A stretch of DNA of 8,533 nt from Kiritimatiellia bacterium (GTDB lineage Bacteria; Verrucomicrobiota; Kiritimatiellia; RFP12; DVOR01), in the NCBI GenBank assembly GCA_017646485.1, contig JAGCML010000078.1, positions 1-8,533 of the forward strand, in the 5' to 3' direction. Positions 2,221-6,230 of this stretch are shown here, piece by piece. Position numbers and translations under genes: made by a program. The notes beneath the pieces are model-generated. The model worked only from the letters and a program-made list of their open reading frames with translations, ran no database searches and was not told the DNA's origin. Positions within the stretch are counted from its first letter, which is position 1; each line of letters opens with the position of its first letter.

Positions 2221-2229
2221 AATAACCTT

Positions 2230-2258
2230 ATTATGTACTCTTTTTAAAGCCCCGTCAA
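2230..2258 (-). promoter_or_regulatory. Candidate sigma70-type promoter of the minus-strand GH20 gene
   Basis: On the minus strand, TTGACG (2258-2253) is followed after 17 bp by CATAAT (2235-2230), close matches to -35 and -10. The -10 box ends only 9 nt before the ATG at 2220, so a start at the usual distance would give a transcript with almost no leader. A weak AAGG ribosome site (2229-2226) lies directly behind the -10 box and would be upstream of that start. The promoter is predicted from sequence only. Confidence 0.55.
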
Positions 2259-2300
2259 CCCCTTTCTACCCCCACTCCACCCCTGCACCTCTGCGTGCCC

Positions 2301-2438
2301 AGGAGTGAGAAGAGAGGAGAAAGGAGTGAGAAGGGAGGAGTAAGGAGAAAGAAGGGAAGAGGAAGAAGTAAGGAGAGAGAAGAGAGGAGAAGGGAGGAGA
2401 GAAGGATGGATGGATGGAGAGAGGGATGGTGGAGAAGA
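2301..2438. repeat. 138-bp purine tract, no C on the + strand
   Basis: From 2301 to 2438 the + strand has no C and only nine T (2306, 2327, 2341, 2369, 2407, 2411, 2415, 2427, 2430); the other 129 bases are purines. It consists of irregular GGAGA/GAAGG units and a short GGAT run (2404-2418). Several overlapping open frames cross it on both strands, but they are low-complexity and I do not regard them as genes. Such mirror-like purine DNA can form triplex structures in principle. It lies about 45 bp upstream of the minus-strand GH20 promoter. Confidence 0.85.
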
Positions 2439-2439
2439 C

Positions 2440-2819
2440 GTGGGGCTTACGCAGCCCCACACCCCGCGGCAGGACTGAGTCCTGCACGCTGCACATCCTC
2501 GGATGTGCTCACAGGTGCTCACGGAAAAGGACTGCATGCAGGGTGGCTACGCCACAGTTCTGGGTTCTGAGGTCTGAGGTCCGAGTTAGCGCTGCGCGCA
2601 GGACTGCTAGGGGATGATGGCATCGAGGAGAGGCGCGAGTGCGCCCCTTACCAACCAACGGGGTGGCTGTACTCTCCGCTCCCCTAACAACGCAGCAAGG
2701 TGCTCACAACATGACACGCTGACACCCTCCCTACAGCCGTAGGCTGGCTCATTCACGCAGGGCGTGGGTCAGCAGGCGCATTCCTATGAGTGGTGCCGCA
2801 GGGTGCGACGTCACCCTGC
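2440..2819. repeat. Cluster of short perfect hairpins in non-coding DNA
   Basis: At least nine inverted repeats lie nearly end to end. They are GTGGGGCT/AGCCCCAC (2440-2460), GCAGGACT/AGTCCTGC (2469-2485), GCACATCC/GGATGTGC (2491-2508), CTGCATGCAG (2532-2541) and GTGGC-tac-GCCAC (2543-2555). Further along are GGCGC/GCGCC (2632-2645), CAGCC-gta-GGCTG (2734-2746), CACGC-agg-GCGTG (2754-2766) and GCAGGGTG/CACCCTGC (2798-2819). None is followed by a T-run, so they are not ordinary terminators. No credible gene is present. Stems differ in sequence while pairing is kept, and three-base loops recur. Confidence 0.8.
2550..2616 (+). repeat. Dispersed intergenic repeat, copy 1
   Basis: Bases 2550-2572 are identical to 8336-8358 (23 nt). 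The similarity continues through GAGTTAGCGC (2583-2592) and a GCGCAGGACTGC end (2596-2607). A 19-nt run at 2589-2607 is also identical to 8401-8419. Copy 1 differs from the 8.3-kb copy by a small extra CTGAGG-type duplication near 2573-2582. It is in the same orientation as the other copy, so the two are direct repeats about 5.8 kb apart, bracketing galM, the symporter and the second GH20 gene. Confidence 0.8.
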
Positions 2820-2827
2820 ATCTCTCC

Positions 2828-2997
2828 TCCACAGCATGCGCCAGCATGCGTAATCTACAGCGAGCCCCGCTCGCGTAATCCACAGGGCCGTCAGGCCCGG
2901 ATATATGCGCCCGAGCACGAAGTGCTGGGAAATCCACAGCATGCGTAATCCACAGTGGCGAAGCCACGTAATCCACCGCACCATCAGGTGCGTAAAC
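2828..2997 (+). repeat. Constant-linker / variable-hairpin array
   Basis: A 10-nt linker recurs at 2850 (GTAATCTACA), 2875 (GTAATCCACA), 2929 (GAAATCCACA), 2945 (GTAATCCACA) and 2968 (GTAATCCACC), with partial copies at 2828 and 2992. Between linkers lie short hairpins of unrelated stem sequence: GCATGC-gcca-GCATGC (2834-2849), GCGAGC-ccc-GCTCGC (2860-2874), GGGCC-gtca-GGCCC (2885-2898), AGCAC-gaa-GTGCT (2914-2926), GTGGC-gaa-GCCAC (2955-2967) and GCACC-atca-GGTGC (2978-2991). One slot has only a half element, GCATGC (2939-2944), and one linker (2899-2912) is atypical. Regular units are 23-25 nt. The array stops 19 bp before the -35 box of galM. Its role is unknown. Confidence 0.85.
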
Positions 2998-3010
2998 TTT
3001 CTACTTGATT

Positions 3011-3039
3011 TTGGCACGCTAAAAGCGTATCCTTATAAG
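3011..3039 (+). promoter_or_regulatory. Candidate promoter of galM-symporter operon with internal palindrome
   Basis: TTGGCA (3011-3016) is separated by 17 bp from TATAAG (3034-3039), each one base from the sigma70 consensus. The spacer contains the inverted repeat ACGCT-aaa-AGCGT (3016-3028), a possible operator where a bound repressor would block polymerase. A start near 3046 gives a leader of about 27 nt that includes the ribosome site GAGGA (3062-3066), 6 nt before the galM ATG. No regulator gene is in the window. Confidence 0.6.
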
Positions 3040-3072
3040 AAAGAATAGTTTTTCCTTCTTTGAGGATTTTGT

Positions 3073-4208: not shown

Positions 4209-4466
4209 ATGGGAAACCTAATCGTTGACGCGTTAGTCTTCTTTGGCTTTATCGCGTGTGTACTCTTTGTCGGCTTCTTTAAGGGCCGCAGTGGCAAGAA
4301 GCCTGAAGGCGAAGAAAATGCCGAAGATTACTTCCTCGCAGGTCGTGGTCTGAGCTGGTGGCTCATCGGCTTCTCGTTGATCGCCGCCAACATCTCCGCC
4401 GAACAGTTCGTCGGTATGTCTGGTCAGGGCGCTGGCCTCGAGGGCATCTCTTGCGCCTCTTGGTAA
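4209..4466 (+). CDS. N-terminal fragment of the symporter (first two membrane segments)
   Basis: These 85 residues, ending at the internal TAA, carry the first helix (residues ~5-24), the DYFLAGR motif typical of the SSS family (40-46), a second helix (~50-62) and SAEQFVGMSG (63-72). The product alone lacks almost the whole transport core and would not be expected to transport. It has a good ribosome site and would be the only translated part unless the stop is bypassed. Confidence 0.6.
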   Translation: MGNLIVDALVFFGFIACVLFVGFFKGRSGKKPEGEENAEDYFLAGRGLSWWLIGFSLIAANISAEQFVGMSGQGAGLEGISCASW

Positions 4467-4487
4467 TGGATTGCTGCTATCACGCTC

Positions 4488-6230
4488 GTGGTCGTGGCCT
4501 TCTGCATGCTCCCCTACTTCTTGAAGACCGGTATCACCACGATGCCTGAATTCTTGGAAGTGCGCTACAACCATGTGGCTCGTACGTTGATGACCATCTC
4601 TATGATTGGCATCTTGATTGTGGCTTCGCTCATCGGCGTGACCTACGCAGGTTCGCTCGTGATGTTCCAGCTCTTCAATTCCTTTGGCGTTAGCATTGAC
4701 TTCACCACCTGCTGCATTATCATGTCGGTGATTGCGGGTGCTTACGTGCTCTTCGGTGGCCTTAAGGCCTGCGCATGGGCAGACCTCATCCAGGGTGCAG
4801 CCCTCATCGTTGGTGGCGGCGTGATTGCCTACTTCGCCATCAAGTACCTCGGCGAAACCCCCGCTGCAGAACTCACCGGCTTCGGCGGTGCAACCACCAC
4901 CGACGCTGCAGGCGTCCTCGAACGCTTCAACGACCTCAATGCTGCCAAGATGCATATGGGCCGTCCTGCTACCGACGCTGCAATGCCTTGGACCATTCTC
5001 ATCATGGGCATCTGGATCCCCAACTTCTACTACTGGGGTCTCAACCAGTACATCACCCAGCGCATCCTCGGCTCTGGCTCCCTCGCTGACGGTCAGAAGG
5101 GTATCGTATTCGCTGCAGCACTCAAGCTCATCATCCCCTTCATCATCGTGATCCCTGGCATCATCGCCTTCAACCTCTGCGCCCCCAAGATGGCTGGCGA
5201 CACGGCTAAGGCTGTGGTTGAAAAGTTCAATAAGGGCGAATACTCCCAGAATGACTTGGTGGTCTTCTACGCCATGGGCGCAGATGCAGACACCGCCGCT
5301 CAGACCAACGTCGCCCTCACGAAGGCTGTTGGCCCTGAAGTCGCTGCAAAGATTAACGTCCATAACGAACCCATCTACAAGCGCATCGCTGCTGACCAGG
5401 GCATCCCCCTCGCAGAAGTGGTGAAGCCTGCCGTCATCCAGAAGCTCTCCGAACAGGGCAAGGCTGGCGAAATCGCACTTAAGGACAACACTGTGATTAA
5501 GGTTGTTGGCAACACCTACAAGTACGATGGTGCACTCGGTCACTTGATGGACATGCTCCCGAAGAACAAGGGTGTGCTCGGCTTCGTGCTCGCCGCACTC
5601 CTCGGTGCAATCGTCTCCTCCCTCGCTGCAGTGCTCAACGCCACCTCCACCCTCTTCACGATGGATATCTTCCAGCGCTACATCAAGCCAGATGCCAAGC
5701 CCGCTACACTCGTGTTCACGGGTCGTGTCATCACGGTGATTCTCGCAGTGGTGGGTTGCGTCGTGGCAGCAGCTCTGAACACCGACACCATCTTCGGTTA
5801 CATCCAGGAAATCCAGTGCTACGTCTCCCCTGGCATCTTCGCCGTCTTCGCCTTCGGTATGCTCAACCGCTCCGCTGGCAAGTGGTCGGGTGTCTGCGGC
5901 TTGATCTTCGGCCCTGTGGTGTTCTACTTCCTCAACACCTACGGCTGGGACTGCTTCCCCTCCTGCGTGCTCGCACTGCTCAGCAAGATTGAATGCCTCG
6001 GCATCCCCGCTGAAGGTGGCTCGATGCACTACCTCATCGCCGCTTCCTATACGCTGGTGCTGACCTTCATCTTCATGTTCATCTACAGCCTCATCTGGAA
6101 GTTGCCGAAGGAAGAAGTGGTGGAATTCAAGTCCAATACCACGTTGGACATGACCACCTCCAAGGGCGCACTCATCGCAGGCATCCTCGTCTGCATTGTC
6201 ACCGTGGTGCTCTACGTCTTCTTCTGGTAA
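4488..6230 (+). CDS. C-terminal fragment of the symporter (remaining membrane core)
   Basis: This fragment is in the same frame as the N-terminal piece and would need GTG at 4488 or a later ATG to start independently. No ribosome site precedes 4488, and the fragment would lack the first helices that carry part of the sugar and Na+ sites, so separate translation into a working protein is unlikely. Motifs include TMPEFLEVRYN, YYWGLNQYITQR, KGIVFAA, AIVSSLAAVLNA, LFTMDIFQRYI and YIQEIQCYVSPGI, with a hydrophobic last helix ending in YVFFW, as in vSGLT. Confidence 0.65.
   Translation: MVVAFCMLPYFLKTGITTMPEFLEVRYNHVARTLMTISMIGILIVASLIGVTYAGSLVMFQLFNSFGVSIDFTTCCIIMSVIAGAYVLFGGLKACAWADLIQGAALIVGGGVIAYFAIKYLGETPAAELTGFGGATTTDAAGVLERFNDLNAAKMHMGRPATDAAMPWTILIMGIWIPNFYYWGLNQYITQRILGSGSLADGQKGIVFAAALKLIIPFIIVIPGIIAFNLCAPKMAGDTAKAVVEKFNKGEYSQNDLVVFYAMGADADTAAQTNVALTKAVGPEVAAKINVHNEPIYKRIAADQGIPLAEVVKPAVIQKLSEQGKAGEIALKDNTVIKVVGNTYKYDGALGHLMDMLPKNKGVLGFVLAALLGAIVSSLAAVLNATSTLFTMDIFQRYIKPDAKPATLVFTGRVITVILAVVGCVVAAALNTDTIFGYIQEIQCYVSPGIFAVFAFGMLNRSAGKWSGVCGLIFGPVVFYFLNTYGWDCFPSCVLALLSKIECLGIPAEGGSMHYLIAASYTLVLTFIFMFIYSLIWKLPKEEVVEFKSNTTLDMTTSKGALIAGILVCIVTVVLYVFFW

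Follow-up and report, generated by a model that had tools for sequence, protein, structure and literature searches.

Hairpins with stems that vary in sequence and mostly stay paired between fixed 10-nt linkers, likely a variant of the REP kind, in a Kiritimatiellia genome

A repeat mosaic between a hexosaminidase gene and an aldose epimerase gene

The window, meaning the whole stretch of DNA analyzed here (8,533 nt), is contig C1 of G000, a MAG of 1.48 Mb on 334 contigs that is 66% complete. A mosaic of repeats lies between a hexosaminidase gene and an aldose epimerase gene (galM) and ends in an array of short hairpins at 2828 to 2997. A purine-rich GGAGARR tract (2301 to 2433) separates the hexosaminidase gene from the repeats, and a similar tract is found downstream of the RAYT gene at C14:84k in a relative, G016 (Kiritimatiellae bacterium isolate RGIG7486 from water buffalo colon, contig JAFYWN010000028.1). 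A sodium-solute symporter-like gene (named by eye) at 4209 to 6230 is split by an in-frame stop at 4464 to 4466; the gene of G016 reads through at this position, and the window copy is either a pseudogene or an assembly error. The features of the mosaic are as follows, with stems in capitals and loops in lowercase.

2436-2524, minus strand: element B, a three-hairpin repeat of ~95 nt that directly precedes the linker array at several other loci
2632-2682, no strand assigned: sibling repeat of the ACCAACCAACGGGG type, like repeats on both sides of the RAYT-like gene G016:C14:28.2k (79% identity over 52 nt, E 1e-7)
2725-2766, minus strand: sibling repeat like the palindromic repeats flanking both sides of the RAYT-like gene G016:C14:54.7k (79-89% identity over 28-43 nt, E 8e-7 to 1e-4)
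2828-2833, plus strand: partial linker TCCACA, seen in the sequence
2834-2849, plus strand: hairpin GCATGC-gcca-GCATGC, shuffle-tested; the word also occurs in L005, L014, L017, and L020
2850-2859, plus strand: linker GTAATCTACA, one mismatch
2860-2874, plus strand: hairpin GCGAGC-ccc-GCTCGC, shuffle-tested; recurs in L011 and L019
2875-2884, plus strand: linker GTAATCCACA
2885-2898, plus strand: hairpin GGGCC-gtca-GGCCC, shuffle-tested; recurs in L020
2899-2928, plus strand: 30-nt module GGATATATGCGCCC GAGCAC-gaa-GTGCT GG, directly after the third hairpin; found elsewhere in the genome also without a linker
2914-2926, plus strand: hairpin AGCAC-gaa-GTGCT inside the 30-nt module, shuffle-tested
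2929-2938, plus strand: linker GAAATCCACA, at the junction with the 30-nt module
2939-2944, plus strand: truncated unit GCATGC, no hairpin
2945-2954, plus strand: linker GTAATCCACA
2955-2967, plus strand: hairpin GTGGC-gaa-GCCAC, shuffle-tested; recurs in L011, L019, and L020
2968-2977, plus strand: linker GTAATCCACC
2978-2991, plus strand: hairpin GCACC-atca-GGTGC, the last unit, shuffle-tested
2992 onward: partial linker GTAAAC
3005-3034, plus strand: promoter-like stretch TTGATT...GCGTATCCTT before the aldose epimerase gene, read by eye; a similar stretch without an array is present at the G016 ortholog

An earlier sequence-only reading of the window had described five linkers with at most one mismatch each to GTAATCCACA, plus two partial copies, and these were recovered at 2850, 2875, 2929, 2945, and 2968, with the partial copies at 2828 and 2992. 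The whole window holds six linker matches at up to one mismatch, the sixth (1619) being within a gene, while shuffled sequences averaged 0.42 matches and none of 200 reached six; at least three linkers in the region from 2828 to 2997 were obtained in 0 of 2,000 shuffles. Counting only perfect stems of at least 5 bp with loops of 3 to 4 nt, this region contains six hairpins, a number reached in 0 of 5,000 shuffles (mean, 0.32; maximum, 3). The same reading had placed perfectly paired stems between the linkers, which is correct for these six hairpins and fails at 2939 to 2944, where the unit is truncated and has no hairpin, and after the third hairpin, which is followed by the 30-nt module before the next linker.

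Among the congeners compared, G016 has the aldose epimerase closest to that of the window (95% identity). Its galM locus lacks the array, retains the similar promoter stretch, and has a different upstream gene. The hexosaminidase ortholog in G016 (77% identity) has a RAYT-like gene ~330 nt upstream, on the side of the window's repeat mosaic. A search of the window for a RAYT remnant found none, with the best of 47 queries giving an E value of 0.048 (inside a gene) and 0.32 within 2221 to 3072. Upstream of galM in the congener G013 (L095), a tandem repeat of CTACGGCTATAGCCCAA with a short variable spacer was observed.

Linkers, hairpin words, and covariation across the genome

Exact copies of GTAATCCACA numbered 54 in G000, compared with a single copy of the reversed pattern. 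A second linker (up to one mismatch) lay within 62 nt of 46 of these copies, on 18 contigs, and 38 of the 54 abutted a hairpin perfectly paired over 5 bp or more; linkers scattered without hairpins, the outcome that the sequence-only reading had named as speaking against its proposal, were thus not seen. Of the eight exact linkers outside arrays, four resemble array remnants when judged by eye (C163, C198, C261, and C329) and four are lone copies (C7, C31, C98, and C272). The tandem pattern AATCCACAG-N4-18-CNNAATCCACAG was found 39 times in G000 and three times in G016, the remaining 15 of the 17 genomes of the genus having none. A stricter tandem pattern, applied to the GTDB r220 collection (which may omit the records of G000 itself), matched only G016 and one contig of Synechococcus sp. 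CS-1325. The latter match (L042, ~4975 to 5030) consists of about four copies of a plain 14- to 15-bp repeat that contains GTAATCCACA and has no hairpins, and it was taken as chance. Viral contigs gave no match. In G016, an array with another linker, TGGTTAA, was noted (L027, 1309 to 1405; G016:C29), with the variable hairpins GCGGC, GGTGC, GCGGC, GGGCGC, and CGAGC.

Within an array all linkers are on one strand and the units run head to tail, commonly with a period of about 21 to 26 nt (range, 17 to more than 50 nt). The array loci are intergenic, mostly 13 to 250 nt from the next gene, and the neighboring genes occur in either orientation, so the arrays are not tied to one gene type. Intergenic stretches at these loci contain 124 hairpins (stem of at least 5 bp, loop of 3 to 4 nt) against 17 to 28 in five shuffles, and coding stretches contain 221 against 161 to 200.

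Units delimited by neighboring linkers totaled 65. Perfect end-to-end hairpins made up 44 of them and composites carrying an additional module 8; another 2 read GCGAAGC, and the last 11 are mismatched or truncated, the mismatched ones including GCGAGC...GCGAGC words that are direct repeats and do not pair. When linker sites were defined loosely, a perfect hairpin directly followed 56 of 102, yielding 26 distinct words with 11 stems, one of which (TGAA) is probably a stray site; the remaining 46 sites include overlapping-linker header artifacts, truncated units, the ends of arrays, and isolated sites unrelated to them. The same words recur across arrays in different order, as a small set reshuffled between loci. 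The initial impression that the stems share no sequence is accordingly right inside the window and wrong genome-wide.

Nearly all of the 26 words begin with G (n = 25) and close with C-G (n = 24). The loop C(GN1-2A)G is present on the linker strand in 16 words, accounting for 41 of the 56 occurrences, and the complementary form C(TN1-2C)G is present in one word. For DNA hairpins, a tetraloop rule, d(cGNNAg), is known, as is the stability of d(GCGAAGC). GNA loops form very stable DNA minihairpins, according to the available portion of PMC6479982, which cites Yoshizawa 1997. On 20 other G000 contigs (C2 to C22 without C7), such loops made up 7% of the hairpins with loops of 3 to 4 nt, compared with 27% at array loci and 3 to 15% in congener samples, indicating that the repeats are clustered and not everywhere. 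These data also bear on whether the arrays act as RNA, that is, as transcribed strings of hairpins that stop, process, or stabilize transcripts. The hairpins are GC-rich and their intergenic positions close to genes would suit this role, but the orientation to genes is not fixed, the array had no Rfam match at gathering scores, GNRA, a stable RNA form, occurs in 0 of 10 tetraloop words, and no T-run follows the inner units as read from the sequence; we consider an RNA function decidedly unlikely.

Covariation was assessed on 15 of the 16 distinct 13-nt spacers of G000 and G016 (GGGCCGATAGGCC was left out), using a measure that counts related rows many times, and 97.3% of cells were paired compared with 68.3% in shuffled sets, double changes that preserve pairing occupied 19 of 75 cells compared with 6.0, and the covariation score was 0.705 compared with 0.131 (0 of 500 shuffles in each case). 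Neither pairs with a double change (3 versus 2.5; 266 of 500 shuffles as high) nor further pair types (8 versus 6.0; 61 of 500 as high) were exceptional in number. In the five-bp stem of these units, the outer G-C and the closing C-G are nearly fixed and the inner three pairs vary. The excess of pairing-preserving double changes supports the earlier suggestion of selection for structure or of a copying process based on structure.

The module seen in the window, in the form ATGCGCCCGAGCAC-GNA-GTGCTGG, has 28 sites at up to three mismatches, versus one for a reversed control, and between the same flanks its stem takes the forms AGCAC/GTGCT and AGCCC/GGGCT, alongside some mismatched copies. At L183 (G000:C242, 4115 to 4196) the module ATGCGCCCGAGCACAACGTGCTGG is arranged in tandem with a 29-nt period. 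Twenty-two copies of element B were aligned and 21 used for covariation (one cut by a contig end was left out). The signal was weaker here, with a score of 0.164 versus 0.101 shuffled (0 of 500) and one clear covarying pair; in 13 of the 21 copies one base pair is open, and further pair types showed no excess (equaled in 499 of 500 shuffles).

A linker that serves as a protein site on duplex DNA, with the hairpins as mere spacers, would account for a constant 10-nt motif that often recurs every 23 to 26 nt, and the linker is one base away from the DnaA box TTATCCACA. Spacers need no pairing, yet the stems covary; the spacing also varies over the range given above, and 15 of 17 genomes of the genus lack the tandem pattern, which makes this explanation very improbable.

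The gain or loss of units, which the sequence-only reading had proposed to follow by comparing strains, could be seen in one strain-like pair only. The contigs C87 and C294 of G000 share a common header and ~130 nt of flank with a few differences, and exactly two linker-hairpin units are absent from C294; the two may be paralogous loci or two strains within one MAG. At L012, adjacent duplicates of one word with differing loops occur inside a single array. Slippage and template switching between hairpin arms are recognized mechanisms, and both observations are what would be expected if no dedicated enzyme were involved, with replication slippage between linkers growing and shuffling the arrays and arm-to-arm template switching keeping the stems paired; arm copying would indeed yield stems that are free yet paired. 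By itself, however, slippage leaves unexplained the at least 18 dispersed array contigs with the same linker and the preference of the loops for one strand, and as a full account we judge it rather unlikely.

RAYT-like genes with a DprA-like domain in relatives

The sequence-only reading had hinted at a REP-associated tyrosine transposase, and such genes, flanked by sibling repeats, were found in the closest relative, G016. That genome has six genes for RAYT-like HUH transposases with a fused DprA-like domain (L160, L045, L044, L158, L178, and L179). Using a profile of 12 homologs, 14 full-length RAYT-like genes were identified in 6 of 17 genomes. G016 has six of them, G012 three, and G004 two, while G000 (C65), G011, and G013 have one each; the C-terminal part (the DprA-like domain) matched by itself in 9 of the 17. 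Pfam Y1_Tnp alone found nothing in G000 and gave matches in G016 and G012, one of them over the cut-off, and the G000 gene was found through a G016 protein and the profile of its homologs. With the NCBIfam model REP_Tyr_transpos, four of five scanned proteins matched at 27 to 49 bits, below the cut-off of 80. Three of 82 relatives carry the JGI name RayT.

H86 and Y146 are present in 12 of 12 aligned rows and H88 in 11 of 12, the G000 protein having HVY, and all three residues are invariant in 35 homologs chosen from the 82 relatives. The predicted structure of a homolog 97% identical to the G016:C15 protein has a mean pLDDT of 91.9. Its top Foldseek match is 4er8, TnpA-REP bound to a REP hairpin, and its C-terminal part matches DprA; a profile search agrees on a RAYT-like part and a DprA-like C-terminal domain. 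By sequence and model, the G016 genes thus combine the HUH motif and the putative catalytic tyrosine in a Y1 fold that are used to recognize RAYTs. A literature search, with many subscription journals outside its reach, returned no paper with both RAYT and DprA among the matches listed.

Repeats common to both flanks (at least 30 nt at 75% identity or more) accompany 6 of 6 RAYT-like genes of G016 and 3 of 67 other open reading frames (Fisher p 5e-7), although the match at C15 is pyrimidine-rich and of low complexity, leaving 5 of 6 convincing. Hairpin counts alone gave a smaller contrast, as one or more stems of 6 in each flank were present at 5 of 6 RAYT genes and at 13 of 71 others. Both sides of the C14:54.7k gene carry hairpins in tandem (ACACGC/GCGTG, CGCCC/GGGCG, and AGCC/GGCT), alternating with the constant stretches AATGAGCC and GGAGG.... 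The C27 family has GTGTGG/CCACAC or GTGAAGC/GCTTCAC as the stem of one slot and GCCTCC/GGAGGC or GCCTTC/GAAGGC as that of a second slot. In both families the linkers are constant and the stems differ yet pair, which is the design of the window's array. Slippage by itself would also leave unexplained these sibling repeats on both sides of RAYT-like genes.

A cognate gene for the GTAATCCACA family was not found among the 14 full-length RAYT-like loci, each of which has at most one linker-like match, in a set whose own MAG is 66% complete. The only full-length RAYT-like gene of G000 (C65) has HVY for HUH and other repeats beside it, and four congeners that lack these arrays have RAYT-like genes as well. 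Transposition events were not observed. Downstream of the C65 gene (L177, 480 to 960), about three copies of a ~150-nt repeat with a TCGGTCCA/TGGACCGA hairpin were observed.

Relation to known repeats and a proposed mechanism

The arrays resemble REPs in being short extragenic palindromes in high copy, with 54 exact linkers, 46 of them in arrays, at intergenic loci. A GTAG or CGTC tag at the foot of the hairpin is absent (the feet read CACA at the 5' end and GTAA at the 3' end), and a largely conserved stem was not found, there being 11 stems among 26 words; because of these two results, the arrays were not placed as members of the REPs. The claim that no named repeat class comes near was nevertheless too strong. 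REPs with GTAG or CGTC tags, in the available text of PMC3733652, are likewise many-copy small extragenic palindromes with short loops, a constant unpaired foot tag, complementary stem variants, and occurrence in clusters, and since such stem variants are known there, the arrays are read as a variant of the REP kind. The same text links GTAG-type REPs to RAYTs and reports tagged REPs from a member of the Verrucomicrobia (PMC3733652). In contrast to those elements, the present arrays have a constant 10-nt linker without GTAG or CGTC, head-to-tail units, and different stems in neighboring units.

REPINs and BIMEs are also nonautonomous, RAYT-linked, and mosaic, and tandem REP arrays are known (PMC3116915, in part). 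REPINs, however, are inverted pairs of one conserved REP according to the same source; two inverted REPs as a replicative unit were not seen in the arrays, whose linkers are all on one strand, and here the palindrome is the variable part. The genes of the relatives resemble RAYT/TnpA-REP in the HUH motif with one tyrosine, the structural match to 4er8, and the flanking palindromic repeats (PMC6006769 and PMC8266576, available sections). They differ in the DprA-like C-terminal domain, and that portion of PMC6006769 describes RAYT subclasses whose C-terminal domain is large as not REP-associated. The LIMP palindromes of Lobosphaera mitochondria are also an intergenic palindrome family with a fixed non-stem part, but they are found in an organelle and have a fixed 7-nt loop and repeated pentanucleotide stems, with no linker array in the accessible part of their description (PMC4524435). 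The literature search, subject to the limited journal coverage stated above, returned no description of constant-linker, variable-stem arrays.

The comparison to a CRISPR with its logic reversed, made in the sequence-only reading, does not extend to kinship, as identical repeats with unique spacers were not found and the words between linkers are hairpins that recur in many loci. The attC sites of integrons conserve structure more than stem sequence, and the arrays likewise keep structure over stem letters. An attC-like origin is nonetheless scarcely credible, given that no cassettes lie between units and that an integron integrase model scored over its cut-off in 0 of 17 genomes of the genus (the MAG G000 being incomplete), with weak matches of this kind also in 14 of 14 control genomes.

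Overall, the arrays are likely a variant of the REP kind. With a probability of slightly under 0.6, we propose that they form a REP-like family spread by a RAYT-type HUH (Y1) single-stranded DNA transposase, predicted to read the linker, the short loop, and the perfect pairing and not the letters of the stem. Such an enzyme would act on the GTAATCCACA family, copying or joining of hairpins would take place in single-stranded DNA, the lagging-strand template being one possible site, and units would be shuffled at the linkers. The stems would drift in step because any mismatch would be corrected using the other arm or else fail to be propagated. For group 3 TnpA-REP enzymes, the available part of PMC8266576 reports that cleavage needs the tag, particular loop bases, and an unbroken stem, and that swapped stem letters have mild effects, so repeats subject to an enzyme of this kind would be expected to combine a constant tag and a constrained loop with well-paired stems of free sequence. 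The arrays show this combination, which by analogy is consistent with the action of an enzyme of this type. Slippage and arm copying may well operate together with RAYT-type spread.

A more specific form of the proposal is tentative, and we hold it with less assurance than the spread by a RAYT-type enzyme: a RAYT-DprA fusion system in Kiritimatiellae may copy hairpins by shape, requiring only the linker, a GNA-type loop, and perfect pairing, which would leave the stems free to vary in concert and let each genome assemble its own combinatorial set of words. If true, the arrays would be natural, genome-wide evidence that a REP-type transposase recognizes single-stranded DNA through its structure, and they would amount to a ready-made collection of substrates that the enzyme accepts. 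RAYTs would then be linked to DprA, a single-strand DNA-binding protein, and the way in which REPs spread could be tested using a small enzyme together with short oligonucleotides.
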